Shown here in pieces: positions 3,483 to 31,843 of a DNA stretch of 64,000 bases (position 1 is the first letter of the stretch; each line of letters begins with the position of its first letter). Source of the DNA: Mariniflexile sp. AS56 (GTDB lineage Bacteria > Bacteroidota > Bacteroidia > Flavobacteriales > Flavobacteriaceae); NCBI RefSeq assembly GCF_030552475.1, contig NZ_JAUPED010000002.1, forward strand, positions 1 to 64,000. The letters are read 5' to 3'. Below the pieces are notes generated by a model. It was given only the letters and a program-made list of their open reading frames with translations. It made no database searches and was not told where the DNA came from. The translations under genes and the position numbers were made by a program.

Positions 3483-3487
3483 AATTT

Positions 3488-4261: not shown

Positions 4262-4266
4262 TATAA

Positions 4267-5792: not shown

Positions 5793-5835
5793 CAAAAGTA
5801 AAACCTATATATAAATTATAATATGATATTTATCA
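5793..5835 (-). promoter_or_regulatory. nirK promoter: CRP/FNR-type box plus -7 element
   Basis: TGAT-ATTT-ATCA (5824-5835) lies exactly 23 bp from the minus-strand -7 element TACTTTTG (5793-5800). This places the box centre near -42, the position of a class II activator site. The predicted leader before the nirK start at 5715 is about 70 nt and holds the Rrf2-type operator. Confidence 0.65.
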
Positions 5836-5947: not shown

Positions 5948-5990
5948 TGATAATTATCATATTTTCAAATAATTGATGTCAGTACATTTG
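5948..5990 (+). promoter_or_regulatory. CRP/FNR-type box and -7 element for the gene at 6034
   Basis: TGAT-AATT-ATCA (5948-5959, inside a perfect 14-bp palindrome) is followed after exactly 23 bp by the -7 element TACATTTG (5983-5990). The predicted transcription start is near 5996, about 38 nt before the ATG at 6034. Confidence 0.65.
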
Positions 5991-6033: not shown

Positions 6034-7854
6034 ATGAAAAACACACATTCCTTCCATGTTCCTGTTATGGGAATTGGATTTACTATAGACACCCCATTAA
6101 AGATTGCGCAATATGGTATAGATTCGGTTATTTCTTTAGTTGACGATATTCTATTAGAGAAACTTAGAAAAATGTATAGTGATAAATTTGAACTACCCTA
6201 TAATGAAATCACTGATAAAATGGAAGATTTTAGAGCCAAAAGAATTACATCTTATTTGAATTTAATAAGTGATTTGGTCGAAAAAAAAATCCAAAATTTA
6301 AAAAATGTTTCCATTGAAAAAAGCGCCGAAATTAAAAAGTATATAGCCATGCTTCCAGATGGCTCTACTTTAAAAGCCGAGTTCAATAAACTCACGGGAA
6401 GTAATTCTGATATATTAGAACTTAAAAGTTGGGCAAACAAAAATTTAAGCATGGGGCATATTGATGTCAACATTATGACCAAGGTTGATAAGGATAATTA
6501 TAAAAAAGATGTTAAACTACCAGTAGAATATAATGATGCTCACGCGGCATTAAGAGGTTTTGCTCAAAGTAAACTAAAATCGTCAGTAATACTTTCCGCA
6601 GGTATGAATCCTCGTTTGTATGCTTACATGAGTCAGTTTGAAGATTTTTATCCAGATGCAGATGGTAATTTTAACAAGAAAATTATTTTAAAGGTTAGCG
6701 ATTTTAGATCAGCATTAATTCAAGGTAAGTTTCTAGCAAAAAAAGGGTTGTGGGTTTCAGAATATAGAATTGAATCTGGACTTAATTGTGGAGGCCATGC
6801 TTTTGCTACTGATGGGTATCTTCTAGGTCCGGTTTTACAAGAATTTAAAGAAAAACGTGAAGAGCTAAGAGCGTCTATCCAAGTAATTTTAAATCAGGAA
6901 TTAGAGCATCAAAATCGTATGGTCGTGAAAGATTCTTTACCTATAAAAATTACGGCACAAGGAGGCGTGGGAACAAGTGAAGAGCATGAATTTTTACTTG
7001 ACTATTACCAACTAGATGCTATTGGTTGGGGAACTCCTTTTCTGTTAGTACCAGAGGCTACCACGGTAGATAATTTAACTTTAAGTAAACTGGTGCAAGC
7101 AAAAGAAGCAGATTTGTATTTAAGTGATATTTCTCCTTTAGGCGTGCCATTCAATAACCTTCGAGATAATACTAAAGATGCTGAAAAAGAGCGATTAATT
7201 AACAAGGGAAGACCAGGGAGTTCATGCCCTAAAAAGTTTGTTGCGTTAAATAAAGAGTTTAAAGCAACGGGCGTTTGCACAGCATCTAGAGAGTATCAGC
7301 ATCATAAAATAAAAGAGTTAGATGTCCAAAATTTAACCTCGAGTGAGTATAGCAGTAAGTTTAATAAAATCGTTGAGAAATCGTGTACCTGTGTGGGACT
7401 TGGTACTTCGGCTTTATTAGCATATAATTTAGATACTAAGGTTGAAGGAACGGGTGTTTCCATATGCCCAGGACCCAACATGGCATACTATTCTAAAATT
7501 ATGAGTTTGAAAAACATGACCGATCATATTTATGGCAGAGATAATATGGTAACCAGAACTGATCGCCCAAATTTGTTCATTAAAGAATTAAACATTTATA
7601 TCGATTATCTAAACACGAAACTAGACGAGCTTAAAGATTCCATGAACAAAAAGGAAGAAAAGTATTTATTGACTTTTACTATGAACATGAAGGAAGGTGT
7701 TCAATATTATCAAAGTCTTTTTAATGAATTGACTGATGTATTCAAAAGTGCCAAAGAAGATGTTTTAAATGAGTTAGATAAATGTACACTAACACTACAG
7801 CAAATTCATTTAAAAATTGAAGCTAAATCAAAAAATCAACTAACGTTTAACTAA
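6034..7854 (+). CDS. Unrecognised 606-residue protein with TIM-barrel-like motifs and conserved-looking cysteines
   Basis: No named family was recognised. The N-terminus (GIGFTIDTPLKIAQYGID) and central segments KITAQGGVGTSEEHEF (about 305-320) and DAIGWGTPFLLVPEAT (328-343) recall the phosphate-binding loops of FMN-dependent TIM barrels of the IMPDH or nitronate monooxygenase type. Seven cysteines are present: C252 (LNCGGHAF), C398, C415, C451 and C453 (KSCTCVGL), C478 (SICPGPNMAYY) and C584. The clustering suggests metal or Fe-S binding. No signal peptide or membrane helix is seen, so it is probably cytoplasmic. The promoter has a CRP/FNR-type box, and the gene sits between nirK and the cbb3 genes, so a microaerobic or anaerobic role is likely. 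A hairpin without a U-tract follows the stop (7863-7898). Confidence 0.8.
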   Translation: MKNTHSFHVPVMGIGFTIDTPLKIAQYGIDSVISLVDDILLEKLRKMYSDKFELPYNEITDKMEDFRAKRITSYLNLISDLVEKKIQNLKNVSIEKSAEIKKYIAMLPDGSTLKAEFNKLTGSNSDILELKSWANKNLSMGHIDVNIMTKVDKDNYKKDVKLPVEYNDAHAALRGFAQSKLKSSVILSAGMNPRLYAYMSQFEDFYPDADGNFNKKIILKVSDFRSALIQGKFLAKKGLWVSEYRIESGLNCGGHAFATDGYLLGPVLQEFKEKREELRASIQVILNQELEHQNRMVVKDSLPIKITAQGGVGTSEEHEFLLDYYQLDAIGWGTPFLLVPEATTVDNLTLSKLVQAKEADLYLSDISPLGVPFNNLRDNTKDAEKERLINKGRPGSSCPKKFVALNKEFKATGVCTASREYQHHKIKELDVQNLTSSEYSSKFNKIVEKSCTCVGLGTSALLAYNLDTKVEGTGVSICPGPNMAYYSKIMSLKNMTDHIYGRDNMVTRTDRPNLFIKELNIYIDYLNTKLDELKDSMNKKEEKYLLTFTMNMKEGVQYYQSLFNELTDVFKSAKEDVLNELDKCTLTLQQIHLKIEAKSKNQLTFN

Positions 7855-7911: not shown

Positions 7912-7987
7912 AGAAAATGATAATTATCAAACCTGAGAATTATCATTTTCTCAGTGATATATCTTATCAACCTGTACAATACTTTTG
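7912..7987 (+). promoter_or_regulatory. ccoI upstream region with two CRP/FNR-type boxes and overlapping inverted repeats
   Basis: TGAT-AATT-ATCA (7918-7929) and TGAG-AATT-ATCA (7934-7945) lie 16 bp apart. They sit within a 14-bp inverted repeat (7912-7925 with 7938-7951), and a second hairpin pairs 7933-7939 with 7948-7954. A -7-like TACTTTTG is at 7980-7987, 34 bp after the second box, about one helical turn more than the 23 bp seen at the other promoters here. Confidence 0.5.
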
Positions 7988-10395: not shown

Positions 10396-10438
10396 TGACA
10401 TATATCATATTTTAAAAATGTGTTCCATGGTAGTTTTG
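10396..10438 (+). promoter_or_regulatory. CRP/FNR-type box and -7 element before ccoS
   Basis: TGAC-ATAT-ATCA (10396-10407) is followed after exactly 23 bp by TAGTTTTG (10431-10438). The predicted start is near 10444, about 14 nt before ccoS. The structural oxidase genes therefore have their own promoter in addition to any readthrough from ccoI. Confidence 0.65.
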
Positions 10439-10651: not shown

Positions 10652-12844
10652 ATGGAAGTACAACAATTCTATTACGACAATAAGATTGTCAAAAAATTCC
10701 TAATAGCCACCATGTTATGGGGCGTTGTGGGTATGTTGGTAGGCTTATTACTGGCGTTTCTATTTTTGTTTCCTAACCTTACAGATGGTATTCCTTGGTT
10801 GAGTTTTGGGCGATTACGGCCTTTACATACCAATGCTGTTATTTTTGCCTTTGTAGGTAATGCTATTTTTGCAGGGGTATACTATTCAACACAACGTTTA
10901 CTAAAAGCTAGAATGGCAAGCGATGTTTTGAGTAATATAAACTTTTGGGGTTGGCAATTAATTATTGTCGCCGCAGCGATTTCTTTACCATTAGGCTACA
11001 CATCATCAAAAGAATATGCCGAATTGGAATGGCCTATTGATATTGCTATTACTCTAGTTTGGGTCGTTTTTGGTTGGAATTTGATAGCCACTATTCTTAA
11101 ACGCCGCCAACGCCATTTATATGTGGCTATATGGTTTTATATCGCCACGTTTGTAACGGTTGCAGTCTTACATATTTTTAATAGTTTGGAGTTGCCAGTT
11201 AGTGGTATGAAAAGTTACTCCGTATATGCAGGTGTGCAAGATGCGTTGGTGCAATGGTGGTATGGGCATAATGCTGTGGCATTTTTCTTGACAACTCCTT
11301 TTTTAGGTCTTATGTATTATTTTGTACCTAAAGCTGCGGATAGACCTATTTATTCATATCGCTTATCTATCATCCACTTTTGGTCCTTAATTTTTATCTA
11401 CATATGGGCAGGCCCTCATCACTTATTGTATACAGCTTTACCAGAGTGGGCTCAAAATTTAGGTGTTGCTTTTTCCATTATGCTTTTAATGCCTTCATGG
11501 GGAGGAATGATTAATGGTTTACTAACACTTCGTGGTGCGTGGGATAAAGTACGTGTTGATCCTGTGTTGAAATTCATGGTGGTAGCGATAACAGGTTACG
11601 GTATGGCAACTTTTGAAGGCCCTTTACTGTCTTTAAAAAATGTAAATGCTATTGCGCATTATACCGATTGGATTATTGCTCACGTTCACGTAGGTGCCTT
11701 GGCATGGAACGGATTCTTAACTTTTGGAATGATCTACTTCTTAGTACCTCGTTTATTCAAAACAAAATTATATTCAAACAGTTTAGCTAATTTACATTTC
11801 TGGATAGGCACATTGGGTATCATTATGTACGCACTGCCCATGTATGTTGCAGGCTTTACACAAGCCAGTATGTGGAAACAATTTAATCCAGATGGCACCT
11901 TAGTTTATGGTAATTTCTTAGAAACTGTTACTGAAATTATGCCCATGTATTGGATGCGTGCCATAGGAGGTTCATTATATATTATTGGTGTGTTTGTCAT
12001 GATTTATAATGTTGTAGTAACCATGAAACGCGGTAGCGAAGTAACCGATGAATTGGCTGAAGCTGCTGCATTACAACGAGTATCCAAAAAACGTGCTATA
12101 GGAGAGGGATGGCATGAGGTTTTAGAGCGAAAACCAATTCAATTGACAATTGGTGCTACAATCGCCATTCTTATTGGTGGGGTTATCCAAATTGTACCAA
12201 CCATTATGGTGAAATCTAATATTCCAACAATCTCTAGTGTAAAACCATATACGCCACTAGAACTTGAAGGCCGTGATATTTACATTCGAGAAGGTTGTGT
12301 TGGTTGTCATTCACAAATGATACGCCCTTTTAGAGATGAAGTAGAACGTTATGGTGAATATTCAAAAGCCGGAGAATATGTTTATGATCATCCATTTCTT
12401 TGGGGAAGTAAGCGAACAGGCCCCGATTTACATCGAATTGGCGCTAAATATTCAGACAATTGGCATTTGAATCATCTTTATGATCCACAAAGTACTTCCA
12501 GTGGTTCCATTATGCCAGCATATAAATGGTTGGTAACCGATGCATTGGATAAATCTGATACAGAAAAAAAGATGGAAGCCATGGTGTCTTTAGGTGTGCC
12601 TTATACCGATTTTGATATTGCGAATGCACAAAAAAGTATGACAGAACAAGGTGCAACTATTGAAAGCAACCTTTATTCTGACCCAGATTTTGAGAAAAAC
12701 TATGAAAACGATAAGAAAAATGGTGGTGCCAATTTTATAGAAATGCGCAATCGTGAAGTGGTTGCGGTTATTGCATATTTGCAACGTTTGGGTACTGATA
12801 TTAAAGTGAAAAATGTAGAAGTTAAAACGACACAAAACGAATAA
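10652..12844 (+). CDS. ccoNO: Fused cbb3 oxidase subunits I and II (CcoN-CcoO)
   Basis: The 730-residue membrane protein joins the haem-copper oxidase subunit CcoN (about residues 1-480, twelve helices, with metal-ligand motifs RPLHTN, WYGHNAV, AGPHHLLY and AHVHVGALAWNG) to the cytochrome c subunit CcoO (C549-x2-C552-H553 in EGCVGCHSQMIRPF). Residues about 500-522 form the anchor helix of the CcoO part. It reduces O2 to water with high affinity at the inner membrane. CcoN and CcoO are separate in proteobacteria; the fusion is the usual Bacteroidota form. Four bases separate it from ccoQ. Confidence 0.95.
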   Translation: MEVQQFYYDNKIVKKFLIATMLWGVVGMLVGLLLAFLFLFPNLTDGIPWLSFGRLRPLHTNAVIFAFVGNAIFAGVYYSTQRLLKARMASDVLSNINFWGWQLIIVAAAISLPLGYTSSKEYAELEWPIDIAITLVWVVFGWNLIATILKRRQRHLYVAIWFYIATFVTVAVLHIFNSLELPVSGMKSYSVYAGVQDALVQWWYGHNAVAFFLTTPFLGLMYYFVPKAADRPIYSYRLSIIHFWSLIFIYIWAGPHHLLYTALPEWAQNLGVAFSIMLLMPSWGGMINGLLTLRGAWDKVRVDPVLKFMVVAITGYGMATFEGPLLSLKNVNAIAHYTDWIIAHVHVGALAWNGFLTFGMIYFLVPRLFKTKLYSNSLANLHFWIGTLGIIMYALPMYVAGFTQASMWKQFNPDGTLVYGNFLETVTEIMPMYWMRAIGGSLYIIGVFVMIYNVVVTMKRGSEVTDELAEAAALQRVSKKRAIGEGWHEVLERKPIQLTIGATIAILIGGVIQIVPTIMVKSNIPTISSVKPYTPLELEGRDIYIREGCVGCHSQMIRPFRDEVERYGEYSKAGEYVYDHPFLWGSKRTGPDLHRIGAKYSDNWHLNHLYDPQSTSSGSIMPAYKWLVTDALDKSDTEKKMEAMVSLGVPYTDFDIANAQKSMTEQGATIESNLYSDPDFEKNYENDKKNGGANFIEMRNREVVAVIAYLQRLGTDIKVKNVEVKTTQNE

Positions 12845-17495: not shown

Positions 17496-18860
17496 TTAAA
17501 TAGTCATTGAAAACAGTTGTGTGTCGGGTTGTTTTCGTTGCAATAATAAATCGAAAGCCATACAAATATTTCGAACAAATGGTTGGCCTTTGGTGGTTAC
17601 TTTAATAGAATTTGAAAGTATATGCAGTAACCCATCTGCTTCCATTTCTTTTAATCGAATTAAAACTTCTGGAAGCTTATTAAAATATAACGCATCGTGT
17701 GTCCAGGATGTTTCAAATTGGCACATCAAATTCAGGATGTGTTTTCTAATTGTGAGATCTTCATTATTTAAAATATGACCTCGATATACTGGAATGATAT
17801 TGTGCATTATTAAATCGTAATATGCTTCAAGTCCTTTTACATTTTGTGAAAATCCATACCAACTATCACTTATGGAAGATACTCCAAGTCCAATCATAAC
17901 TTTGGTTTTAGATGCCGTATACCCCATGAAGTTCCTGTGTAATGTTTTGTTTTTCATGGATTTGTATAATGAATCGGTTTCTAAAGCGAAATGGTCCATG
18001 CCAATATCTTTATAGCCTGCTTTCGCTAGTAGTGATTTTCCTAATTCGTATTGTTGGTGTTTGGTTTCAGGCGATGGTAAATCGTTATCATTAAATCCGC
18101 GTTGTCCGTTGCCTTTTATCCAAGGTACATGGGCGTAGCTGTAAAAAGCAATACGGTCTGGTTTTAATTGGTTAGTTCTGTTAATGGTTTCCTCTATATG
18201 TGTCATAGTTTGAAAGGGCAATCCAAAAATAAGGTCATGGCCAATAGAGGTGTATCCAATTTGTCTCGCTTCCTCGGTTACACGTTTTACATTTTCAAAA
18301 GGCTGTATGCGATGAATGGCCTTTTGTACGGTTTCATTATAATCTTGAACCCCAAAACTAACACGTCTAAAACCTAAATTAAATAGGGTTTGTAGGTGTG
18401 ATTTTGTTGTGTTATTTGGATGGCCTTCAAAACTGAAATCATAATTCTCAGCAAGAATTGCTTTATTCAATAGACCATTAATCAGTATTTCTAGATTGTT
18501 TGAAGAAAAAAAAGTGGGTGTTCCACCGCCTAAATGCAACTCTTTTATTAGTGGCTTGGTATCGAACAAATCACAGTATAATTCCCATTCTTTTAATACC
18601 GCATTTATGTATGGCAATTCCACTTCATGGCGTTTGGTGATGCGTTTGTTGCAACCACAAAAAGTACATAAACTTTCGCAAAATGGTAAATGAATGTATA
18701 GACTAAGACCTTCTTCGGTATTACTTTCATTAAAGGATTTAATGAGTGAATTTTTCCAATTTTTTAATGAAAACGTTTCATTGTTCCAATAAGGTACAGT
18801 GGGATAGCTGGTGTATCTTGGGCCAGCAATATTATATTTATTAACTAAAGAAGTGTGCAT
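17496..18860 (-). CDS. hemN: HemN, oxygen-independent coproporphyrinogen III oxidase
   Basis: The 454-residue radical SAM enzyme converts coproporphyrinogen III to protoporphyrinogen IX without O2 in haem synthesis. The cluster motif HLPFCESLCTFCGC gives C61, C65 and C68, plus the HemN-specific C70. The substrate region GPRYTSYPTVPYW near the N-terminus is also typical. Length matches bacterial HemN. The promoter has TGAT-N4-ATCA 23 bp from a -7 element, so induction under low oxygen together with cbb3 oxidase is likely. A universal stress gene follows in the operon. Confidence 0.95.
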   Translation of the reverse strand: MHTSLVNKYNIAGPRYTSYPTVPYWNNETFSLKNWKNSLIKSFNESNTEEGLSLYIHLPFCESLCTFCGCNKRITKRHEVELPYINAVLKEWELYCDLFDTKPLIKELHLGGGTPTFFSSNNLEILINGLLNKAILAENYDFSFEGHPNNTTKSHLQTLFNLGFRRVSFGVQDYNETVQKAIHRIQPFENVKRVTEEARQIGYTSIGHDLIFGLPFQTMTHIEETINRTNQLKPDRIAFYSYAHVPWIKGNGQRGFNDNDLPSPETKHQQYELGKSLLAKAGYKDIGMDHFALETDSLYKSMKNKTLHRNFMGYTASKTKVMIGLGVSSISDSWYGFSQNVKGLEAYYDLIMHNIIPVYRGHILNNEDLTIRKHILNLMCQFETSWTHDALYFNKLPEVLIRLKEMEADGLLHILSNSIKVTTKGQPFVRNICMAFDLLLQRKQPDTQLFSMTI

Positions 18861-18879: not shown

Positions 18880-18922
18880 CAAAATTAGCGTACTATTAGA
18901 ACTCAAACTATGATAAAAATCA
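18880..18922 (-). promoter_or_regulatory. hemN promoter: CRP/FNR-type box plus -7 element
   Basis: TGAT-AAAA-ATCA (18911-18922) is exactly 23 bp from the minus-strand -7 element TAATTTTG (18880-18887). The predicted transcription start is about 14 nt before the hemN ATG at 18860. Confidence 0.65.
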
Positions 18923-18940: not shown

Positions 18941-19786
18941 CTATGTATCGTGCATTACCAAAAAAGGAATGTCGGTGTGGTAGCTAATGTTTTTAATTTT
19001 TGAATGAAAAAGAATTTGTTGAAAGTAGTTTAAGTTTTTTGCTACCATGGCAATTATAGTAGTGTTTCGGCTTGCAATAAAGCTTTGAATGGCTTCTTCA
19101 ATTTTAGAATTGGTTAACTGATGAAAGCTTTTAGTATACGGAGTAAAATACTCTTCCAACAGGTCTTTGTTACGTTGCTGGGTTATGCTTAATAAGTCGT
19201 TTTTTTTACTAATGTGAACCACACTTAAAGCCGATTGGTAGCGTTCTAAAATTTCGGCAATTGGTTGTAAATGCCCAAGTTCATAGGATAATGAATAATC
19301 AGTAGGAAATGCAATTTCTTTAATAGGCGTGTATATGGCATTCTCTGGAATTATTAATGTGGTACATTTTACTTTCGTAATTACATCACCAGCGTTACTC
19401 CCAATTAATAATTTTTTTAATCCTGTGGCACCTTTAGTCCCCATAACAATGGTATCAATTTTTCTTTCATAAATGTGTCTTCTAATGGTTTCAATGAAGG
19501 AGCCAGTATCTGAAAGTGTGAAAAATTTATGTGAATTGTTTCTTGGGAATTGTTGGCTAATACGTTTAATAAACTGCTTTAAGTGTTCTTTAGCGTTAGT
19601 TATATAAGTATCATTTAAAACACCCGTAGAAACCCCGTAAACGGAAGGTGTTGTGTTATTAGCGCTTGCTTTATCTACATGTAACAAATAAAAATGACAA
19701 TCCATTTTCTCATAAAAATGAATGGCATACACTATGGCATTCCATGAATTTTCAGAAAAATCTGTTGGCAATAAAATATGTTTCAT
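18941..19786 (-). CDS. Universal stress protein with degenerate second domain
   Basis: The 281-residue protein has two Usp-like domains. The first keeps the ATP-binding pattern MGTKGATGLKKLLIGSNAG near residues 116-134; the second lacks an intact glycine motif. The role is probably stress survival in the cytoplasm. It has its own promoter with a CRP/FNR-type box, and lies between the hemN operon and the sensor-regulator pair. Confidence 0.88.
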   Translation of the reverse strand: MKHILLPTDFSENSWNAIVYAIHFYEKMDCHFYLLHVDKASANNTTPSVYGVSTGVLNDTYITNAKEHLKQFIKRISQQFPRNNSHKFFTLSDTGSFIETIRRHIYERKIDTIVMGTKGATGLKKLLIGSNAGDVITKVKCTTLIIPENAIYTPIKEIAFPTDYSLSYELGHLQPIAEILERYQSALSVVHISKKNDLLSITQQRNKDLLEEYFTPYTKSFHQLTNSKIEEAIQSFIASRNTTIIAMVAKNLNYFQQILFHSKIKNISYHTDIPFLVMHDT

Positions 19787-19809: not shown

Positions 19810-19852
19810 CAAAGCTATAATTACAGTAAATTTTAAAATATGATAAGTGTCA
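19810..19852 (-). promoter_or_regulatory. Universal stress gene promoter: CRP/FNR-type box plus -7 element
   Basis: On the minus strand TGAC-ACTT-ATCA (19841-19852) lies exactly 23 bp from TAGCTTTG (19810-19817). The predicted leader to the ATG at 19786 is about 18 nt. Confidence 0.6.
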
Positions 19853-19878: not shown

Positions 19879-20931
19879 TTAGTGAATATCCTTTAATTTT
19901 TGAATATCTAAAATTTTAATGGTACGCCCTTCAATATCAATCAATCCTGATTTTTTAAAATTTGAAAGCGTTCTTATTAAAGATTCGGTAGCAATACCAG
20001 CGGTACTAGCCAAATCGTTTCTTGAAATTTTAATGGAGTCATTTGGTTGACGATTCAGTTTATCGGCAAATTTTAGAATGGTATTTGCGGTTTTTTTATT
20101 AACAGAACTATATGCCATTTGTAAGAGCTGATCTTTAATGCTGGTTAAATCATCCGTTAATAATTGAATCAATTCCAAAGTTACTTTATGGTTGTTATTT
20201 AGAACATCTTTAAGCTGGTCTTTTGAAATACCAACTAACTCTAACGATTTTATAGCGATGGCGGTTTCTTGATAAGGTATATTTTGGATAAAAGACGTAT
20301 ATCCAAACAAATCATCCTCAGTATGTAATGCGGTAGTTAATTCTTTGCCTTGTTCATCAAACTTGTAGCATTTTGCAGCACCTTTGCTAATTAAATAAAT
20401 ATAGTTACTGTTTTGGCCTTCTTCATAAACAGTATCGCCTTTTTCGATTGAAAACTGCTGACCGTTATCTTCAAAGAAATTTTTAAGATCGTTTAGGGTG
20501 CGTAACTCATCTTCAACGTTGGTGTTACTATTTTTTAGAAGCTCATTTTCCTCGTTTAAAATAGCAACTTTTGCCAAACGGCTGTCTATAGCACTTACAA
20601 GTTCGTCTTCAGTAAAGGGTTTGGTAATATAATCATCTGCCCCCATATCCATACCTTTTCGAACATCTTTACGTTCGGTTTTGGCTGAAAGAAAAATAAA
20701 AGGAATAAAACGCGTTGCACTGTCTTTAGACAAGGCTTCTAAAACGCCATAGCCATCAATTTCAGGCATCATAATATCGCAAACTATAATGTCTGGAAGT
20801 TGTTTTTTTGCAACTTCAATACCAATTTTACCATTAGGAGCTGTTATAACTTCAAAATTTGAAAGCTCTAACAATTCTGCGGTGTTCTCTCTTAAAATAA
20901 CATCGTCTTCTATAAGTAGTAAACGTTTCAT
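19879..20931 (-). CDS. Response regulator with receiver domain fused to a CRP/FNR-type output
   Basis: The 350-residue regulator has an N-terminal receiver domain (D9, D10, phosphoacceptor D52, K104), a short coiled linker (about 122-150), a cyclic-nucleotide-binding-like beta-roll (about 150-265) and a C-terminal CRP-type winged helix (about 275-345). In the recognition helix ATESLIRTLSNF, E316 and R320 match the CRP/FNR residues that read TGA half-sites. FNR's Fe-S cysteines are absent, so the signal probably comes by phosphorylation from the kinase encoded upstream, with which it overlaps by 4 bp. It is the best candidate for binding the TGAY-N4-RTCA boxes in this window, combining FixJ- and FixK-like roles in one protein. 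Confidence 0.92.
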   Translation of the reverse strand: MKRLLLIEDDVILRENTAELLELSNFEVITAPNGKIGIEVAKKQLPDIIVCDIMMPEIDGYGVLEALSKDSATRFIPFIFLSAKTERKDVRKGMDMGADDYITKPFTEDELVSAIDSRLAKVAILNEENELLKNSNTNVEDELRTLNDLKNFFEDNGQQFSIEKGDTVYEEGQNSNYIYLISKGAAKCYKFDEQGKELTTALHTEDDLFGYTSFIQNIPYQETAIAIKSLELVGISKDQLKDVLNNNHKVTLELIQLLTDDLTSIKDQLLQMAYSSVNKKTANTILKFADKLNRQPNDSIKISRNDLASTAGIATESLIRTLSNFKKSGLIDIEGRTIKILDIQKLKDIH

Positions 20932-22172
20932 GGGGTAAATTGGTTTGGGATGGTTATAATGAAATTTGAGCCTTTGTTTTCTTCACTTTCAAATGAAATA
21001 TGGCCACCTAAATTTTCTAAATGGGTTTGTACAATGTTTAAGCCAATACCAGTGCCATGTGTTAACAACGCGTTTTCAGCCCTAAAATAACGATTGAAAA
21101 TATTTTTTTGGTCCTTTTCAGGAACGCCCATACCATTGTCAATCACTTTAAAAGTAGTTTCGGTGTTGTTTTGTTTAATTTCTAGGTAGATAATGGAATG
21201 CTCTGGCGAGTATTTTATGGCGTTGTGAATTAAATTAGATAAGGCCAGTTCCATTATCTTTTCGTCTTGTATTAACGATAAATCATCAATATGCTCGGGG
21301 TATTTTATTTGCTGGCCTTCTTTTAAAAGCATATTGGCATTATAAACAACCTCATTAACAATTTTACTGATTTTAAAATTTGAATATTTATAGTCTACTT
21401 TCCCCAGTTCCAGTTTTTCCAAAGAAAGAAAATCGTTAAGTATGTTGTTAAGGTAATGTACTTTCTCTGTAATAGTCTTAATATGCTTATCGCGCTTTTC
21501 TTGCTGTTCTGATAATTGGTATTTACCCAATAACATGGCAGAGGTTAAAATACCACTTAAAGGCGTTTTAAACTCATGTGAAACCAATGACAGAAATTTT
21601 GTTTTAAGTTCGTTTAATTCAATTTCTTTTTGGAGCGCTTTTTTTGTTTTATTTTCAGCGTCTATCCGTCTATTGTTTTCTATTTGGAGTTCTTCGTTTA
21701 GTGTTTTTAATAGTAAAACAGAATCATTAAGTTCCTTAGTGCGTTTCTCAATTTTTAATTCTAGTTCAGTATTTAATTCCGTTATTTTTCGTTCGTGTTC
21801 CTTTCTAACAGAAATATCAATAACCAAAGCCATAACGTAGTCTTTGTTTTCTAACTGAAAAGGATTTAGTCCAGCTTCTACTGGAAATATGCTTCCATCT
21901 TTACGTTTGCCAAAAATATCCCTGCCATGTCCCATTTGGCGGCGTTCTTGGTCTTTCATAAAACCTTTAAAATGTGCAGCGTGAGAAGGGTGGTAGTTAT
22001 TCGGTATTAATACATTAAGATGTTGACCAATAAGCTCATGACGGTTGTAACCAAACATCTTGTCTGCCGACGCATTGGTTTCGGTAATGGTTTGAAGCGC
22101 ATCAACCACTACAACACCTTCTGAAACCGAACCTAATAAAACATTAAAAACATCGTGCTCTTTGGTAAACAT
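20928..22172 (-). CDS. PAS-domain sensor histidine kinase, FixL-like
   Basis: The 414-residue kinase has a PAS domain (about 8-125), a coiled coil (about 125-190), HisKA (SLVSHEFKTPLSG, phosphoacceptor H199) and HATPase_c (N317, DNGMG 345-349, GTGIGL 373-378). No membrane helix is seen, so it is cytoplasmic. In the PAS domain, counting back from GHGRDIFGKRKDG, H64 falls where FixL has its haem-ligand histidine, and R84 matches the conserved FixL arginine. This makes oxygen sensing through haem possible, but many non-haem PAS domains share the motif. The stop overlaps the response regulator start by 4 bp. Confidence 0.9.
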   Translation of the reverse strand: MFTKEHDVFNVLLGSVSEGVVVVDALQTITETNASADKMFGYNRHELIGQHLNVLIPNNYHPSHAAHFKGFMKDQERRQMGHGRDIFGKRKDGSIFPVEAGLNPFQLENKDYVMALVIDISVRKEHERKITELNTELELKIEKRTKELNDSVLLLKTLNEELQIENNRRIDAENKTKKALQKEIELNELKTKFLSLVSHEFKTPLSGILTSAMLLGKYQLSEQQEKRDKHIKTITEKVHYLNNILNDFLSLEKLELGKVDYKYSNFKISKIVNEVVYNANMLLKEGQQIKYPEHIDDLSLIQDEKIMELALSNLIHNAIKYSPEHSIIYLEIKQNNTETTFKVIDNGMGVPEKDQKNIFNRYFRAENALLTHGTGIGLNIVQTHLENLGGHISFESEENKGSNFIITIPNQFTP

Positions 22173-22256: not shown

Positions 22257-22299
22257 TGACAAATATCATTGAACAGGTTTTAGTTTACTAGTAATTTTA
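22257..22299 (+). promoter_or_regulatory. CRP/FNR-type box and -7-like element before the flavin split-barrel gene
   Basis: TGAC-AAAT-ATCA (22257-22268) is exactly 23 bp before TAATTTTA (22292-22299), which differs from TAnnTTTG only in the last base. The gene starts at 22383, giving a leader of about 78 nt. The box is also 85 bp upstream of the kinase gene on the other strand, but no -7 element at the matching distance is seen in that direction. Confidence 0.5.
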
Positions 22300-22382: not shown

Positions 22383-22838
22383 ATGATACAGAACATTGAA
22401 GAGAAAGAAATGAGATTTATTTTGGAGAACAATTATGTTGGTCAATTAGGTTATGTTTATCAAAACAGACCTTTTGTAGTACCCATTACATATTATTTTG
22501 ATAAAGAGAGAAATGCTGTTATTTGCTACTCTGGCGATGGCCATAAAATGAAAGCCATGAGGAAAAATAAAGACGTTTGCCTTCAAATAAGTGACATAAA
22601 CACGGTAAACGATTGGAAATCTGTATTGGTACATGGAAAATTTGAACAACAATTTGGAAGTAATGCCAAAGCTTGCTTGCATCAATTTTCATTGGGAGTT
22701 AAAGATCTTATCATGGAAAAAGAAAAGGCCGTACTAGATTTTATTCACGAATTTTCGAGCAAGGTGAGTGATGAAGGTCATGCCGTCGTTTTTTTAATTG
22801 AGATAGAGGAAATGACAGGGAAAAAGAGGAATACTTAA
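22383..22838 (+). CDS. Pyridoxamine 5'-phosphate oxidase-like FMN-binding split-barrel protein
   Basis: The 151-residue protein has the flavin split-barrel pattern of the nitroimidazole-resistance/Pyridox_ox_2 group: GQLGYVYQNRPFVVPITYY, a GDGHKMKAMRKNKDVCLQIS segment and a WKSVLVHGKFE strand. Members bind FMN or related cofactors and act as small oxidoreductases in the cytoplasm; the substrate cannot be read here. Its promoter region has a CRP/FNR-type box, tying it to the low-oxygen gene set. It converges with the YceI-like gene at 22890. Confidence 0.85.
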   Translation: MIQNIEEKEMRFILENNYVGQLGYVYQNRPFVVPITYYFDKERNAVICYSGDGHKMKAMRKNKDVCLQISDINTVNDWKSVLVHGKFEQQFGSNAKACLHQFSLGVKDLIMEKEKAVLDFIHEFSSKVSDEGHAVVFLIEIEEMTGKKRNT

Positions 22839-22889: not shown

Positions 22890-23477
22890 TTATTCGTATT
22901 CCTGAAGCACTAATTTAAAGTTAATTACAATGTTTTCAGACACTACAATTAGACCTAATATTTTTTTTGGTGCTTCTAGGTTGAAATCTTTAATATTCAA
23001 TTTAAGGTCTCCTTTAATTATCCAATTTTGATCTTTATCGTATGCTATTTTCATATGATAGGATTTAGATTTTCCTGCTAGTTCTATTTCTAATAAAGCA
23101 TCAGCAGTATTCTTTTTGTTTGGATATAGTTTGATTTCTTTTAATTTAAGTTTGATTTTAGGGTAAATATCAGATTTCAACAATCCATGAAAATCTCTGT
23201 TGATTCCTTTTCCACCACAATCAAAACCATTGTTTTCTAGAATTAACGTCGATTTTTCAAATTTTATAACATCATTTACACTTTCATAAAGGATAGGAAT
23301 AGGTGCATCTATATTTTTTATGTTGTATATACATTTAAAGTCGGTAACATTACTTATGCCTGTAATATACAATGTGCTTTTAGGCGTAATGAGTATAGAT
23401 TTCCTGTGTTTTAGTACTTTTGTTGAAGAAAAAGAAACCATTAAAAGAAATGATAAGATGAAACTGAATCTTTTCAT
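22890..23477 (-). CDS. YceI-like periplasmic lipid-binding protein
   Basis: The 195-residue protein has a signal peptide (about residues 1-20) and a lipocalin-like beta-barrel of the YceI type. Typical segments are STLYITGISNVTDFKC near the start and a C-terminal LNIKDFNLEAPKKILGLIVV followed by I-x-I-N-F. YceI proteins bind isoprenoid or amphiphilic molecules in the periplasm. It is third in a YceI-porin-YceI group but is separated from the porin by a terminator, so it may have its own promoter in the 90-bp gap. Confidence 0.8.
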   Translation of the reverse strand: MKRFSFILSFLLMVSFSSTKVLKHRKSILITPKSTLYITGISNVTDFKCIYNIKNIDAPIPILYESVNDVIKFEKSTLILENNGFDCGGKGINRDFHGLLKSDIYPKIKLKLKEIKLYPNKKNTADALLEIELAGKSKSYHMKIAYDKDQNWIIKGDLKLNIKDFNLEAPKKILGLIVVSENIVINFKLVLQEYE

Positions 23478-23511
23478 GACATAGTAGTTTAATTATTTGA
23501 TTATGAAAATT

Positions 23512-23561
23512 AAAAAAAAGCCAATCTCATTTTTTTTATGGAATGAGGTTGGCTTTTTTTT
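23512..23561. terminator. Bidirectional terminator between the porin and the distal YceI gene
   Basis: The arms AGCCAATCTCAT (23519-23530) and ATGAGGTTGGCT (23543-23554) pair with one G-T pair and a 12-nt loop. They are flanked by an A-run (23512-23519) and a T-run (23554-23561). On the minus strand it ends the porin transcript, whose stop codon is at 23568. Confidence 0.75.
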
Positions 23562-23567
23562 ATGAAC

Positions 23568-24836
23568 TTAGAAACTAATAGCGGCTTCTAGCACAAGCCC
23601 GTTAAACTTACCGTCCTCTAATAAATTCCCACTAGGGTAATCGTTAAATTTTTGGTTTACATATTCGGCTTTTAGTAAAATGTTTTTAGTCATGAACCAG
23701 CCAGCACCTAGTTGGAACCTGTCTACATTTACATCATCGCCAGTTGTTAATTCAGCACTTACAGTATTGTATCGCGTTCCTAAATAAAAGCTCTCAGAAG
23801 TTCCAAATCTATATATTATTTCACCTGCATATTGGGTTGCTTTTCTTCTGTCTATTTCAGTTAAGGCTTTTCCTGATGTCAATTCAACGGTTCCAAAAAC
23901 TTCCAACCCGTTGTATTTTAGGAAAGGATTAATCATAACTGCTGTGATTTTATTTTTGAATCCTGGGTCGAAACGTCCAGATCTAAAATTATCGCTAGTT
24001 GAAGTGGCATCTTGCATAACACTGTAATATCTAGACCCTGCTCTATCTGCTGTGTATAAATAAACAGACTGTGCGTACCCTGTATTATATAAAGAGCCTG
24101 TTAATCTAAATCTAAAATCATCTGAAATTTGCTTGTCATAACCAACTTTTGCTAAGAAAGCTGCACCTCCAGTAGTACCATTAGCTATCTTAACATTTTG
24201 GTTTAATTTTCCATTAGAAAACCCTATCATAGCTAATAAACCACTATCGCATTGGTACAGAACTTCTGCACCCACTTCAGTTGTAAAAGAATCCATAATT
24301 AAGTTGCCTACAAACGGGTTGAAAAGTGTTTGTGCATTGTCACTTCTTCTAAAATGCGCATCACCATAGTTGTTTTCCATATGTCCAATTTTAATAGTGG
24401 TATGTTTCATAAGCTCTTCTAAAAAGCCTTCACTAATAAAATTTAATTTATCAATTTGAAAGTATCCTCCCTTAACATAAGGTTCTGGATGATGTCTAGA
24501 AGATAGATATGTTCTTAAATGCATTCGCACACCATCATAAAGTGCTACGTCTAAATCTAAATTAGCAGTAGCTAAGTTAAAGTTGCTTCCAATTTCTCCT
24601 AAAGGAATAACTCCAGAGTTCCCATTATCTAAAGATTGAAACTGAAGTGTAGAAGCACCCCCAACTCTCACTTTTACACCGTTAAAGGTTGAAATAGAAT
24701 CTTTAGGCTCTTCAAAAATGCCAATACCATCTTTATCTTGTGGTTTAAAATGATCTAAATTTCTGTTTTGTCCATAAATACTGAATCCAATGAGTACGAT
24801 TCCTAACAGTATTACTTTTTTTAATATTGCTTTCAT
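23568..24836 (-). CDS. Outer-membrane porin-like beta-barrel protein
   Basis: The 422-residue protein has a signal peptide ending near IYGQ (residue 22). It then has alternating strand patterns of a phosphate-selective-porin-like or similar barrel, ending in an aromatic residue (AAISF), typical of outer-membrane barrels. The segment MKHTTIKIGHMENNYGDAHF resembles the pore region of porins. The substrate is unknown. It lies 30 bp after a YceI gene on the same strand and is probably expressed from that gene's promoter, which has a CRP/FNR-type box. Confidence 0.75.
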   Translation of the reverse strand: MKAILKKVILLGIVLIGFSIYGQNRNLDHFKPQDKDGIGIFEEPKDSISTFNGVKVRVGGASTLQFQSLDNGNSGVIPLGEIGSNFNLATANLDLDVALYDGVRMHLRTYLSSRHHPEPYVKGGYFQIDKLNFISEGFLEELMKHTTIKIGHMENNYGDAHFRRSDNAQTLFNPFVGNLIMDSFTTEVGAEVLYQCDSGLLAMIGFSNGKLNQNVKIANGTTGGAAFLAKVGYDKQISDDFRFRLTGSLYNTGYAQSVYLYTADRAGSRYYSVMQDATSTSDNFRSGRFDPGFKNKITAVMINPFLKYNGLEVFGTVELTSGKALTEIDRRKATQYAGEIIYRFGTSESFYLGTRYNTVSAELTTGDDVNVDRFQLGAGWFMTKNILLKAEYVNQKFNDYPSGNLLEDGKFNGLVLEAAISF

Positions 24837-24866
24837 AATTTTTGTTTTTAAATTTTTGTTGTTTGG

Positions 24867-25451
24867 CTATTTGAATATGGTTGAAAATTTAATTGTAATA
24901 ACATCGCCTGTAGTAATAGTGCCTAACAAGGCCTTTGGAGGTTCTATTTTGAAGTCTGTCATTTTAATTTTCTGTTCGCCAATAAGCGTTATTTTATTAT
25001 CTAGAATACTTAATGAAAGTTCCAAGGGAATCTGTTTTTTTACCCCAGAAATACTTAAATCACCTTCAGCTTTTAATGAAAATTTGCCGTTTCCCTTGTT
25101 TATAATTTCGTTAACTTGGGTTAATTGAAAAGAAATGGTTTTATAGCTGCTCGTGTTTAAAGCTTTATAAGTATTCTTATCCATGCTGGATTTACCACTT
25201 TTTAAGCTTTCGGCTACTATATCAATGTTGCATTTATCAATCTCGCCAGCTTCCATGTTTTTAAAAACTATTTTTCCACGTTGTTGTTCGGCAGTAATAT
25301 GCCAATCGTGTAAACTTGAAGTTCCTAAAACAGAAAGTGTGGATTCATAGTTTATTAAATTGAATTGTTGTGCTTGAATTAAGTGAGATGCTAAAATAAA
25401 AAAAGCCATAAAGCTTAAAACTATTTTGTACATTTTTTTATTTGGATTCAT
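24867..25451 (-). CDS. YceI-family periplasmic protein
   Basis: The 194-residue protein has a signal peptide ending near IQAQQ and a YceI beta-barrel: STLSVLGTSSLHDWH, SMDKNTYKALN, DLSISGVKKQIPLELS and FKIEPPKALLGTITTGDVITIKF. It probably binds isoprenoid or other lipid-like ligands. A second in-frame ATG at 25433 gives a shorter, equally good signal peptide. It is the first gene of a YceI-porin operon and has a CRP/FNR-type box 55 bp upstream. Confidence 0.88.
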   Translation of the reverse strand: MNPNKKMYKIVLSFMAFFILASHLIQAQQFNLINYESTLSVLGTSSLHDWHITAEQQRGKIVFKNMEAGEIDKCNIDIVAESLKSGKSSMDKNTYKALNTSSYKTISFQLTQVNEIINKGNGKFSLKAEGDLSISGVKKQIPLELSLSILDNKITLIGEQKIKMTDFKIEPPKALLGTITTGDVITIKFSTIFK

Positions 25452-25872
25452 AATCTTTGGTTTTAATTATGATGCAAATTTCAGACACAATGGGAGTTTA
25501 AAAAATGATAAATATCATACCTATTTAAAAAAGAGATTTCTCATTTATAATTGAAGTAATATGAAGAGTAGGAGAAGTTAGTTTAATAAATTAGATTGAA
25601 AAATTAGCATGAGGCATACTATTATAAAGCTGTAAATTTGTTAGATAGATAGAAGGGGGAATATTAAAAGAAACGGTAAAGAGCCGATTAGTTTTGTTAA
25701 TAGGCTTATCATTTTAAGTGTTTTGTCCAATTATTTAATGTAATCGACTCATGACTTATGATGTAAAGAGATTATCATGCACAAATGGTGGTGTATGTTA
25801 CTGTAGTTGAAGTTATTAGTGACTCTGATCTCTATGTCTAATTTAATGGAGTAATTGAATAGATAATTGCGA
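25452..25872. other. 420-bp gene-free region
   Basis: This region lies upstream of the YceI gene and downstream of the YdjM-type gene, both on the minus strand. It holds the YceI promoter near its left end (25475-25517). No coding frame, hairpin terminator or repeat was recognised in the rest. Confidence 0.5.
25475..25517 (-). promoter_or_regulatory. YceI-porin promoter: CRP/FNR-type box plus -7-like element
   Basis: TGAT-AAAT-ATCA (25506-25517) lies exactly 23 bp from the minus-strand GAAATTTG (25475-25482), one base off TAnnTTTG. The distance to the ATG at 25451 fits a short leader. Confidence 0.55.
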
Positions 25873-27457: not shown

Positions 27458-30400
27458 ATGCTTAATAACATTATTAGGTACTCTGTAACGCACAAATTGG
27501 TTATAGGGCTACTCACTTTGGCTTTAATTATTACGGGCGTTTATTCGTTACGTCAGCTTCCTGTAGATGCTGTGCCCGATATTACCAATAACCAAGTACA
27601 GGTTATTACCAATTCACCCACATTAGCGGCGCAAGAGGTGGAGCGCCTCATTACTTTTCCTATTGAAATCACCATGGCAACCATTCCGAAAATAGAAGAA
27701 ATTCGTTCGTTTTCACGTTTTGGTTTATCTGTGGTTACTATTGTTTTTGAAGAAGATGTCGATGTTTATTGGGCACGTCAACAAGTGAACGAGCGTCTTG
27801 CAGATGCGCAATCTCAAATACCAGAAGGTATAGGGAAACCTGGAATCGCACCATTAACTACGGGGCTTGGAGAAATTTATCAATATGTGGTTACAACCAA
27901 GCCTGGTTATGAAGATCGTTATGACGCCATAGAATTGCGAACCATTCAAGATTGGGTTATTAAAAGACAACTTTTAGGCACAAAAGGGGTTGCAGATGTG
28001 AGTAGTTTTGGTGGTTATTTAAAACAATATGAAATCGCCATACGTCCGGAACGCTTAAACGCTATGAATGTTTCAATTTCTGAAATTTTTAAAGCTTTAG
28101 AAACGAACAATCAAAATACGGGTGGTGCCTACATCGAAAAAAATGATAAAGCTTTATTTATTAGAAGTGAGGGCTTTGTTGCTTCCATAGAGGACATTGA
28201 AAATATTCTTGTTAAACAAACTAGCGGAAGAAACCCCATTTTAATAAGCGATGTGGCAAAAGTACAAATAGGAACAGCGATTCGTTATGGTGCCACGACA
28301 CGTAATGGTGAAGGTGAAGTTGTTAGTGCTATTGTGATGATGCTAAAAGGCGCAAATTCAGCCCAAGTGATTACAGATGTTAAAGATAAAATTGAAACGA
28401 TTAGTAAAACATTACCAGAAGGTGTCGTTATTGAACCTTTTTTGGATAGAACGAAATTAGTAAATAATGCGATTGGAACCGTTACGACAAACTTGGTGGA
28501 AGGGGCACTAATTGTTATTTTTATTTTACTATTACTATTAGGTAATTGGAGGGCAGGATTAATTACGGCTTCTGTAATTCCATTAGCCTTATTGTTTGCA
28601 TTTTCTATGATGCATATTTTTGGGGTTTCAGCCAATTTAATGAGTTTGGGTGCAATTGATTTCGGACTTATAGTTGATGGTGCTGTTATTATAGTAGAAG
28701 CGACTTTATTCCATTTAGGTGCATTAAAATTAAAGAGGAGGCTTACACAAGAAGAAATGGATGAAGAAGTCTATCAATCTGCCAGCAAAATTAGAAACTC
28801 GGCAGCCTTTGGAGAAATTATCATCCTTATTGTGTATTTACCTATATTGGCTTTGGTGGGAACAGAAGGAAAAATGTTCGGACCTATGGCTCAAACAGTT
28901 AGTTTCGCCATTTTGGGTGCTTTTATACTGTCCCTAACCTATATTCCTATGATGTCTGCGCTTGTTTTAAGTAAAAATACCAATCATAAAAAGAATATTT
29001 CCGATAGGATAATGCATTTCTTCTATAAAATTTATGAACCTATTTTGAAAAGAGCCATGCAAGCACGTATGCTCGTTGTTTCAGTAACCATTCTATTATT
29101 TGTGTTGGCTTTTATGGTGTTTACAAAATTAGGAGGTGAGTTTATTCCAACACTAGAAGAAGGTGATTTTGCAGTTGAAACACGGGTGATGACGGGAAGT
29201 TCACTTTCCAATACCATTAAGGCTACAACCAAAGCAGAAAAAATACTTTTAGATAACTTTCCGGAAGTGGAACAAGTCGTTTCCAAAATTGGTTCTGGTG
29301 AAATACCTACAGACCCGATGCCTGTGGAAGCGGCCGATTTAATGATTATTCTCAAAGATAAATCGGAATGGGTTTCGGCTTCCAACAGAGAAGAATTAGC
29401 AAATAAAATGGCTGAGGCTTTAGAGGTGATTCCGGGTGTAACTTTTGGTTTTCAACAACCTATTCAGATGCGTTTTAATGAACTGATGACGGGTGTGCGC
29501 CAAGATGTAGCCGTAAAAATTTATGGTGAAGATTTAGAACAACTATCCAAGTACGCCAATCAAATTGGACAAATTGCAGGAACTGTTGATGGTGCTGTAG
29601 ATGTTTATGTGGAGGAAGTGACCGGTATTCCCCAAATTGTAATTGATTATAACCGAGCACAATTAGCAAAATATGGTTTGGATATTCAATCTGTAAACAC
29701 CACCATTCAAGCTGCTTTTGCTGGGGCATCTTCGGGGTTGGTTTATGAAGGAGAAAAACAATTTGATTTGGTAGTGCGTTTGGAAGGAGACCATAGAACC
29801 AGTCTTTCAGATGTTCAAAATCTATATATTAATGGTGTGAATGGGCAGCAAATACCATTGCAGCAAGTAGCTAAAGTTTCCATCATAGATGGCCCCTATC
29901 AAATACAACGCGATGATACTCAAAGACGTATTATTACAGCGTTTAATGTGCGTAATCGGGATGTGGAAAGTGTCGTGGAAGAAATAAGCCAAAAAATTGA
30001 CAGTCAAGTAAATTTAGCACCCGGTTATAGCATTAGTTACGGTGGGCAATTTGAAAATTTGGTAGAAGCTAGGCAGCGTTTATCCATTGCGGTGCCTATG
30101 GCATTGTTGCTTATTTTCATTTTACTGTATTTCACTTTTGGATCTATAAAGCAAGGTGTTTTAATATTTACAGCCATACCATTATCTGCTATTGGAGGTG
30201 TGTTTGCGCTTTGGCTTCGCGATTTACCTTTTAGTATTTCTGCGGGTGTTGGTTTTATTGCACTTTTTGGAGTCGCCGTATTAAATGGAATTGTGTTAAT
30301 TGCAGAATTCAACCGACTAAAAAAAGAAGGCGTTTCAGATGTTTTTGAACGTATTTACCAAGGTACTAAGACTCGTTTGCGCCCTGTAATAATGACCGCT

Positions 30401-31843
30401 GCGGTAGCTTCTTTAGGGTTCTTACCTATGGCAATTTCTCAAACCTCCGGGGCAGAAGTACAACGTCCTTTAGCAACTGTTGTTATTGGAGGTTTAATTA
30501 CCGCTACTTTTTTAACGCTTATAGTCTTGCCTATTATTTATTATTATTCAGAAAAAAACATGAAAATGAAAGGGAATAAAATGGGTTTACCTGTGTTTTT
30601 AATCTTTTTCGGATCTGTTTTCGCTGTAAACGCACAAACGGCACCAAAGGTAAAAGTATTCAATAATCTAGAAACTGTTGTAGAGACGGCGTTGAGGAAT
30701 AACCCCAATATCGAAATATCAAAATTACAAACAGACCAAGAACGGGCTTTAAAAGGAGCGAGTTTTAATCTTCCTAAAACAGATTTTGGTTTAGAATATG
30801 GTCAAACCAACAGCGCTGTAACTGATGATACCCGGTTTAGTGTGAATCAAACTTTTGCATTTCCAACAGTATATAGCAACCAAAATAAGCTTTCAAAGGC
30901 GAAAATCGCATCTACGGAATGGAATCAAAAAGTTGTAGAAAATGAGTTGGAAGCACAGGTAAAGTCGGTTTATTATGGGCTTTGGTATCTTAAAAGCAAA
31001 GAACGTGTGTTAGTGCAGCAAGATAGTATTTATCAAAAATTTCAGTATGCGGCAAATCTTCGTTTTAAAACTGGTGAAAGCAATGCCTTGGAAAAAGCAA
31101 CAGCCACGGCAGAATTAGCCGATATTGAAATTGCAATGCAAAACAATAGGTCTAGTATAAAGGGGTATCAACTACAGTTGCAAAACCTTCTGAATTCTGA
31201 TAGTTTGGTAGATATTTATGTGGGTGATTTAGAAGTGAAAACCGTTATGTTTTCAGAAACATCTGTAGATAGTTCAGCTGTTTCAAATAACCCATTAGTG
31301 TACTTCTATAAATCAAAATTAGACATTTCAAATAAGGAACGTTCCGTGGAAACGGCAAAAATGTTACCCGATATAACTTTAGGGTATTTCAATCAATCTT
31401 TTATTGGGAATGGGGTAACTGCAAGTGGAACCCCAACCGTATTCGATTCTGGCGATCGTTTTACGGGTGTGCAATTAGGGTTAAGTATACCTTTATTTTT
31501 TAAGTCGCATACATCAAAAATAAAAGCGGCAAAAATTCATGAAAAGGAAATAGAAGCACAATTAGAAGCGGTTACTAAGTATACGCAATCGCAATTTCAA
31601 ACGGCTATGGAATCCTTAAGAAAGGATAAAGAAAATTTAGATTTTTATAGTTTGAACGCCTTACCCCAATCAGACTTATTATTAAAAAGTTCGCAACGTG
31701 GTTTCCAAGAGGGAGAGATTCAATACGTTGAATATGTGCAAGGCATTAATAGAGCTTTAGCCATACAAATTAAATATTTAGATTATATCAATCAATATAA
31801 TCAAACCCTTATAACCATTGAAAAACTGACATCAAATAATTAA
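27458..31843 (+). CDS. CzcA-type heavy-metal RND pump fused to a TolC-family outer-membrane channel
   Basis: The 1461-residue protein is an HME-RND transporter (about residues 1-1034) followed by a TolC/OEP domain (about 1042-1461). The helix-4 signature DFGLIVDGAVIIVE is the divalent-cation (Zn/Co/Cd/Ni) type. At the junction, MKMKGNK, a hydrophobic stretch and NAQT look like a complete signal peptide. Processing there could release a separate TolC moiety. The pump drives periplasm-to-outside metal export using the proton gradient, with the adaptor encoded 4 bp downstream. Fused pumps of this kind occur in Bacteroidota. Confidence 0.93.
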   Translation: MLNNIIRYSVTHKLVIGLLTLALIITGVYSLRQLPVDAVPDITNNQVQVITNSPTLAAQEVERLITFPIEITMATIPKIEEIRSFSRFGLSVVTIVFEEDVDVYWARQQVNERLADAQSQIPEGIGKPGIAPLTTGLGEIYQYVVTTKPGYEDRYDAIELRTIQDWVIKRQLLGTKGVADVSSFGGYLKQYEIAIRPERLNAMNVSISEIFKALETNNQNTGGAYIEKNDKALFIRSEGFVASIEDIENILVKQTSGRNPILISDVAKVQIGTAIRYGATTRNGEGEVVSAIVMMLKGANSAQVITDVKDKIETISKTLPEGVVIEPFLDRTKLVNNAIGTVTTNLVEGALIVIFILLLLLGNWRAGLITASVIPLALLFAFSMMHIFGVSANLMSLGAIDFGLIVDGAVIIVEATLFHLGALKLKRRLTQEEMDEEVYQSASKIRNSAAFGEIIILIVYLPILALVGTEGKMFGPMAQTVSFAILGAFILSLTYIPMMSALVLSKNTNHKKNISDRIMHFFYKIYEPILKRAMQARMLVVSVTILLFVLAFMVFTKLGGEFIPTLEEGDFAVETRVMTGSSLSNTIKATTKAEKILLDNFPEVEQVVSKIGSGEIPTDPMPVEAADLMIILKDKSEWVSASNREELANKMAEALEVIPGVTFGFQQPIQMRFNELMTGVRQDVAVKIYGEDLEQLSKYANQIGQIAGTVDGAVDVYVEEVTGIPQIVIDYNRAQLAKYGLDIQSVNTTIQAAFAGASSGLVYEGEKQFDLVVRLEGDHRTSLSDVQNLYINGVNGQQIPLQQVAKVSIIDGPYQIQRDDTQRRIITAFNVRNRDVESVVEEISQKIDSQVNLAPGYSISYGGQFENLVEARQRLSIAVPMALLLIFILLYFTFGSIKQGVLIFTAIPLSAIGGVFALWLRDLPFSISAGVGFIALFGVAVLNGIVLIAEFNRLKKEGVSDVFERIYQGTKTRLRPVIMTAAVASLGFLPMAISQTSGAEVQRPLATVVIGGLITATFLTLIVLPIIYYYSEKNMKMKGNKMGLPVFLIFFGSVFAVNAQTAPKVKVFNNLETVVETALRNNPNIEISKLQTDQERALKGASFNLPKTDFGLEYGQTNSAVTDDTRFSVNQTFAFPTVYSNQNKLSKAKIASTEWNQKVVENELEAQVKSVYYGLWYLKSKERVLVQQDSIYQKFQYAANLRFKTGESNALEKATATAELADIEIAMQNNRSSIKGYQLQLQNLLNSDSLVDIYVGDLEVKTVMFSETSVDSSAVSNNPLVYFYKSKLDISNKERSVETAKMLPDITLGYFNQSFIGNGVTASGTPTVFDSGDRFTGVQLGLSIPLFFKSHTSKIKAAKIHEKEIEAQLEAVTKYTQSQFQTAMESLRKDKENLDFYSLNALPQSDLLLKSSQRGFQEGEIQYVEYVQGINRALAIQIKYLDYINQYNQTLITIEKLTSNN

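Follow-up and report, generated by a model that had tools for sequence, protein, structure and literature searches.

The window, i.e., the whole stretch of 64,000 nucleotides of Mariniflexile sp. AS56 that was analysed, carries on its minus strand a gene for a sensor histidine kinase followed by a gene for a response regulator whose receiver is fused to a CRP/FNR-type output (Table 1). The original prediction had described a kinase/regulator pair with an overlap of 4 bp, and both open reading frames are real and occur in this order on the same strand. In the kinase, Pfam recognises PAS (residues 12-120), HisKA (190-256) and HATPase_c (303-410) domains; the protein is free of cysteines and shows no clear transmembrane segment. 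The regulator comprises Response_reg (5-115), cNMP_binding (161-247) and HTH_Crp_2 (282-349).

Architecture and conservation of the pair

Typical features of two-component systems are present, namely the HisKA histidine, the HATPase and the Asp/Asp/Ser/Lys set of the receiver, encoded by adjacent genes. Features of the CRP/FNR superfamily are found in the regulator as well, with the cNMP-binding fold and an HTH_Crp domain with the E..xR arrangement for TGA. As the output consists of cNMP_binding and HTH_Crp_2, the regulator does not share the LuxR-type HTH of FixJ. Its only cysteines are Cys51, in the receiver, and Cys188, so that the N-terminal Fe-S cysteines of FNR are absent, as had been predicted. 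Judged from the sequence, the cNMP fold appears to be devoid of an obvious cAMP-binding arginine, with Q-E-T-A where CRP has E-R-S-A. A structure search with the regulator returned only CRP/FNR/FixK2-type proteins among the best 50 matches, and no receiver-CRP fusion was among these. The residue numbers proposed earlier are right for H64, R84 and H199 of the kinase and for D52, E316 and R320 of the regulator. H64 and H199 are invariant across 41 aligned kinases, and D52, E316 and R320 across 33 aligned regulators.

Table 1. Positions of the pair, its domains, presumed targets and boxes in the window
Feature	Position	Strand	Basis
Receiver-CRP/FNR fusion regulator, 350 aa	19879..20931	-	ORF list, Pfam, alignment
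Receiver domain, residues 5-115, with D52	20587..20919	-	Pfam, alignment
CRP-type cNMP-binding fold, residues 161-247	20191..20451	-	Pfam; without FNR cysteines
HTH_Crp_2, residues 282-349, recognition helix GIATESLIRTLSNFKK with E316 and R320	19885..20088	-	Pfam, alignment
PAS-HisKA-HATPase sensor histidine kinase, soluble, FixL-like, 414 aa	20928..22172	-	ORF list, Pfam
PAS domain, residues 12-120	21813..22139	-	Pfam; best PDB matches are FixL and DosP haem-PAS
His64 codon, aligned with FixL/DosP proximal haem ligand	21981..21983	-	Alignments, partner kinases
His199 codon, HisKA phospho-acceptor	21576..21578	-	109/109 partner kinases
ccoNO, fused cbb3 oxidase subunits I/II, presumed target	10652..12844	+	
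hemN, presumed target	17496..18860	-	
Box TGACAAATATCA, 85 bp before kinase, 126 bp before divergent gene 22383	22257..22268		73/95 relatives before kinase
Box TGATAAGTGTCA before usp gene 18941-19786	19841..19852		81/86 relatives
Box TGATAAAAATCA, 51 bp before hemN	18911..18922		Motif search
Box TGACATATATCA, 256 bp before ccoNO	10396..10407		73/76 family genomes, mostly ~-260
Box TGATAATTATCA before copper-ATPase-like gene 8002	7918..7929		Motif search, relatives
Box TGATAATTATCA, 86 bp before ORF 6034-7854	5948..5959		Motif search
Box TGATATTTATCA, 109 bp before nirK (4267-5715, -)	5824..5835		Motif search
Box TGATAAATATCA, 55 bp before first yceI of yceI-porin-yceI-like genes	25506..25517		4/4 relatives

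Of 100 Flavobacteriaceae genomes, 42 encode orthologues of the fusion. Except for a single locus, all 110 fusion loci contain a same-strand kinase of like type, at a distance of at most 100 bp in 108 of the 109 cases, and the identical 4-bp overlap is found in 36 loci. A usp gene nearly always follows the pair, and hemN, ccoG-ccoH, ccoP, ccoNO, a copper ATPase gene, yceI and the small flavin-type gene at 22383 are located nearby in many loci. The partner kinases (L032, L052, L065, L088 and others) come in forms of about 410, 500 and 630 amino acids, which suggests one to three sensor domains combined with the same regulator. Outside the Flavobacteriaceae, fusions of 39-46% identity were found across the Bacteroidia, and several of these loci adjoin cco genes and hemN as well. 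Pricia antarctica contains a second receiver-CRP/kinase pair (L079:628-3322, minus strand), which shares 42% identity and is oriented divergently from the main one.

Further genes of the window include a row that encodes SCO1-like and EgtB-like proteins and copper nitrite reductase (2769-5715, minus strand), with two boxes ahead, and a 606-aa protein of no clear family (6034-7854, plus strand) encoded between nirK and the copper ATPase gene. The yceI-like, beta-barrel-like and yceI genes (22890-25451, minus strand) are grouped in a few relatives (L031, L042, L096, and L105). An RND efflux pump (ACR_tran) is fused to an OEP outer-membrane efflux domain in one ORF of 1461 amino acids (27458-31843, plus strand).

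The PAS domain and its possible signal

With the PAS domain as sole query, the 13 best PDB matches were all FixL or DosP and placed H64 on the proximal haem ligand; the residue occupies the position of H200 of BjFixL in pairwise as well as multiple alignments. Of 105 partner kinases of the Flavobacteriaceae, 103 retain a histidine at this position, whereas an alignment of the extracted domains showed it in none of the genome's 23 other PAS domains; it is therefore not a general PAS feature. The proposed alignment of H64 with the FixL haem ligand is thus borne out. R84, proposed to match the conserved arginine, aligns with Arg220 of FixL but, present in 85 of 105 partner kinases, is less conserved than H64.

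The kinase reaches 97.6 bits against the curated FixL model NF041777, which has a cut-off of 850 bits, and is therefore not filed as FixL proper. Its PAS domain belongs to an R-x-MG-x-GRDL subgroup, and in the alignment its distal pocket departs from FixL, with Q79, H82, A100, and L102 at the positions of I215, I218, L236, and I238 of FixL. H82 also aligns with the axial methionine of DosP and is found in 47 of 105 relatives. A haem in the PAS domain is likely but, given this diverged pocket and the position of H82, could be six-coordinate. The AlphaFold model has pLDDT values of 62-64 around residues 61-80, so that the PAS core near H64 is of low confidence, and the Foldseek matches of the kinase were set aside, as they consisted mostly of kinase cores or LOV-kinase chimeras at very high rmsd. 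Oxygen, NO and redox are all possible signals.

One might suppose that the pair runs a microaerobic regulon through the boxes of Table 1 while the PAS domain responds to a signal other than oxygen at a haem, such as redox or quinone state, NO, a metal bound by H61-H64-H67, or another cofactor. H61 and H67 are often conserved too (65 and 74 of 105 partner kinases, respectively), polar residues replace those of the FixL distal pocket, with H82 at the DosP axial methionine, and the paralogous pair of P. antarctica uses a kinase without the PAS histidine, so that the wider family is not locked to this residue. Such paralogues occur in other genomes as well. Nevertheless, of the three histidines H64 is conserved most strongly, and the partners of the fusion across the class include essentially complete FixL haem-PAS kinases. 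In detail, the PAS domains of four of these kinases (L337, L340, L345, and L352) are 42-50% identical to Bradyrhizobium FixL over its full length and contain a PHIIGIGR-type motif together with the flanking pocket residues, i.e., a near-complete FixL haem-PAS. In case of L352, FixL came first in the PDB search (2.7e-31), and the FixL-like Bacteroidia kinases score just 161-173 bits against NF041777. The histidine at the haem-ligand position was present in all 16 partner kinases scored outside the Flavobacteriaceae. We regard a signal of another kind as unlikely and retain oxygen, perceived by a haem at H64, as the preferred reading.

The TGAY-N4-RTCA box and its probable reader

The pattern TGAYNNNNRTCA occurs nine times in the window, compared to a mean of 3.4 in shuffled sequences, of which 1 in 100 reached nine. 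Eight of the nine boxes are intergenic, all within 5.8-25.6 kb, and lie upstream of nirK, the ORF at 6034, the copA-like gene, ccoNO, hemN, usp, the kinase operon and yceI; the ninth, inside a coding region, is presumably due to chance. The pair is thus placed among genes with matching boxes, including ccoNO, hemN and nirK, in agreement with the original prediction. The box preceding the kinase operon likely indicates autoregulation.

Phylogenetic footprinting with a spacing of 4 recovered the box in 81 of 86 usp, 73 of 95 kinase, 6 of 6 ccoNO and 8 of 9 copA promoters, versus about 0-6 at other spacings (0-3 and 5-10). Among the 100 family genomes, 76 contain ccoNO, and the box is present in 73 of these 76 ccoNO promoters, mostly around 260 bp before the start. 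In fusion-bearing genomes outside the Flavobacteriaceae it precedes ccoNO in 21 of 22. The invariance of E316 and R320, together with the conservation of the boxes, is in good agreement with the proposed recognition of TGA half-sites.

The loose box shows no excess across the whole genome (229 sites versus 213 in the control), and promoter position and conservation were taken as evidence in its place. Sites of this short box outside conserved promoters therefore mean little. A pattern search with the stricter box TGAYAWWWRTCA gave about 47 sites in the genome. In a 20-kb stretch of the window 7 of 7 were situated in promoters, versus 5 of 40 elsewhere (Fisher p 1.3e-5; clustering of the sites in 20 kb, p ~2e-9), although both p values flatter because the stretch was picked post hoc. 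The promoter sites elsewhere belong to hemA, whose divergent neighbour is an AraC gene, to pta, to an HPF-type gene, to a methyladenine glycosylase gene that diverges from a thioredoxin gene, and to a porin gene adjoining the FNR-type gene described below.

Except for one, all 35 cco genomes without the fusion contain a cysteine-bearing FNR, usually encoded close to cco; the exception is an assembly of 82% completeness. Of the 41 cco genomes with the fusion, 15 are devoid of FNR of either type, and the box before cco is kept in 13 of these 15, with no exact box in the other two. The remaining 26 also encode an FNR-type protein, and the two regulators may therefore share targets. Other CRP-type proteins of the fusion-only genomes, of which a sample of 11 was read, carry a recognition helix of the TSRVVISR type without the TGA-reading glutamate. 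The helix of the fusion nearly matches that of FNR, GTATESAIRILSQFKK. Taken together, the replacement pattern, the kept box and the closely similar helix make it probable that the fusion recognises the same box as FNR and can take its place. The suggested link to the cbb3, hemN and nirK genes is strengthened by the boxes upstream of them and by the replacement of FNR at the conserved cco box. An origin of the fusion from inside the local cysteine FNRs found no support, as the tree places the fusions as one group beside the FNRs (support 83/88, moderate).

The genome of the window contains no cco-linked FNR but another cysteine FNR-type protein, a second candidate reader of the box that the original prediction had overlooked. 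Its gene (L263:10007-10762, minus strand; genome G000 C3:60009-60761) is located between a nitrate-transport operon and molybdopterin genes. Proteins of this type were found in 15 of 100 family genomes and are likely nitrate/molybdenum regulators, which could share boxes with the fusion. That the boxes are read mainly by this protein, with the fusion controlling something else, would fit its CxxCxxxxC motif with a further cysteine, its E..xR helix (EEQVIR) and a box in the neighbourhood of its own gene. It is, however, present in only 14 of 76 cco genomes, compared to 73 of 76 for the box, and sits in a nitrate/molybdopterin context. Moreover, the box is retained in 13 genomes that encode the fusion but no FNR of either type, and in most relatives a box directly precedes the operon of the pair and the usp gene next to it. 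We therefore consider this reading very improbable and hold to the fusion as the probable reader. Although flavobacterial genomes encode dozens of receivers and PAS domains (here 41 receiver or CRP matches and 24 PAS domains), a chance neighbourhood of an ordinary PAS kinase and response regulator with respiratory genes, with no shared function, is contradicted already by the box footprint, besides the conserved pair, the histidine, the FNR replacement pattern and the proximity of cco and hemN in distant Bacteroidia, and is highly improbable.

Proposed switch and comparison with known systems

The anatomy of the proteins, the conserved pair, the box and the FNR replacement pattern are read from the sequences themselves. 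On this basis, the kinase and the fusion probably constitute a two-component microaerobic switch acting on TGAY-N4-RTCA boxes. The kinase would sense oxygen limitation, most likely by a haem held at His64 of its FixL-type PAS domain, and in its active state phosphorylate Asp52 of the regulator. Phosphorylation of the receiver would allow the fused CRP domain to dimerise or to adopt a DNA-binding form, and the regulator would then bind the boxes before the genes of the cbb3 oxidase and its copper ATPase, hemN, nirK, yceI, usp and its own operon. A single protein would in this way do the work of rhizobial FixJ and FixK, on a box that is read by FNR in flavobacteria without the fusion. Phosphotransfer, the direction of regulation and the haem/oxygen signal are what we infer, the direction from what is known of cbb3, hemN and nirK physiology. 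With less assurance we lean towards a wider statement: that throughout the Bacteroidia the fusion is under the control of a FixL-type kinase with a haem and itself recognises the FNR box at cbb3 and haem genes, with FNR replaced in many genomes and phosphorylation in place of an Fe-S cluster.

Bacteroidota are common in low-oxygen habitats, and to our knowledge the oxygen control of their respiration is poorly understood. The analysis yields a concrete regulator, a box and a presumed regulon comprising cbb3, copper ATPase, hemN, hemA, nirK, pta, and usp genes. It also points to a natural experiment, in which one and the same promoter box is retained and its reader appears to alternate between FNR, an Fe-S sensor, and a receiver-CRP protein that would be phosphorylated. 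Such a rewiring of a transcription factor's input with its output kept is directly testable.

In the FixL-FixJ-FixK system of rhizobia, cbb3 (fixNOQP) and haem genes are the targets (PMC4999443). Both systems share a FixL-type PAS kinase, a receiver, a CRP/FNR-type output on boxes with TGA half-sites, and cbb3 and haem genes as targets, presumed ones in the window. They differ in the diverged distal pocket of the PAS domain of the window and in rhizobial FixJ, whose LuxR-type output turns on a separate fixK gene. The Pfam domains, and the finding that across the class the fusion is paired with PAS kinases retaining the FixL haem histidine, support the original view of a compressed FixL-(FixJ+FixK) architecture. 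As receiver and CRP output reside in one protein, the oxygen-control circuit would, if true, be one transcription step shorter than FixLJ-K. An alternative wiring from FixL to FixK is given by hFixL-FxkR-FixK of Rhizobium leguminosarum and R. etli (PMC4999443, PMC7888657), in which FxkR, unlike the fusion, is a separate regulator in what is still a cascade. The flavobacterial cysteine FNR encoded next to copA-cco resembles the fusion in its recognition helix, its box and the position of that box about 260 bp before ccoNO, but senses oxygen by its own Fe-S cluster, whereas the fusion has a receiver and no such cysteines. DosP is similar in its PAS sequence and in the position of the histidine ligand, but is a c-di-GMP phosphodiesterase and not a kinase. 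In a search of open-access papers, which makes for a weak negative, no description was found of a receiver-CRP fusion in the Bacteroidota or of FixL-like control of cbb3 in this phylum. The parts are known; their combination, its spread across the class and its exchange with FNR at a single conserved box appear to be new.
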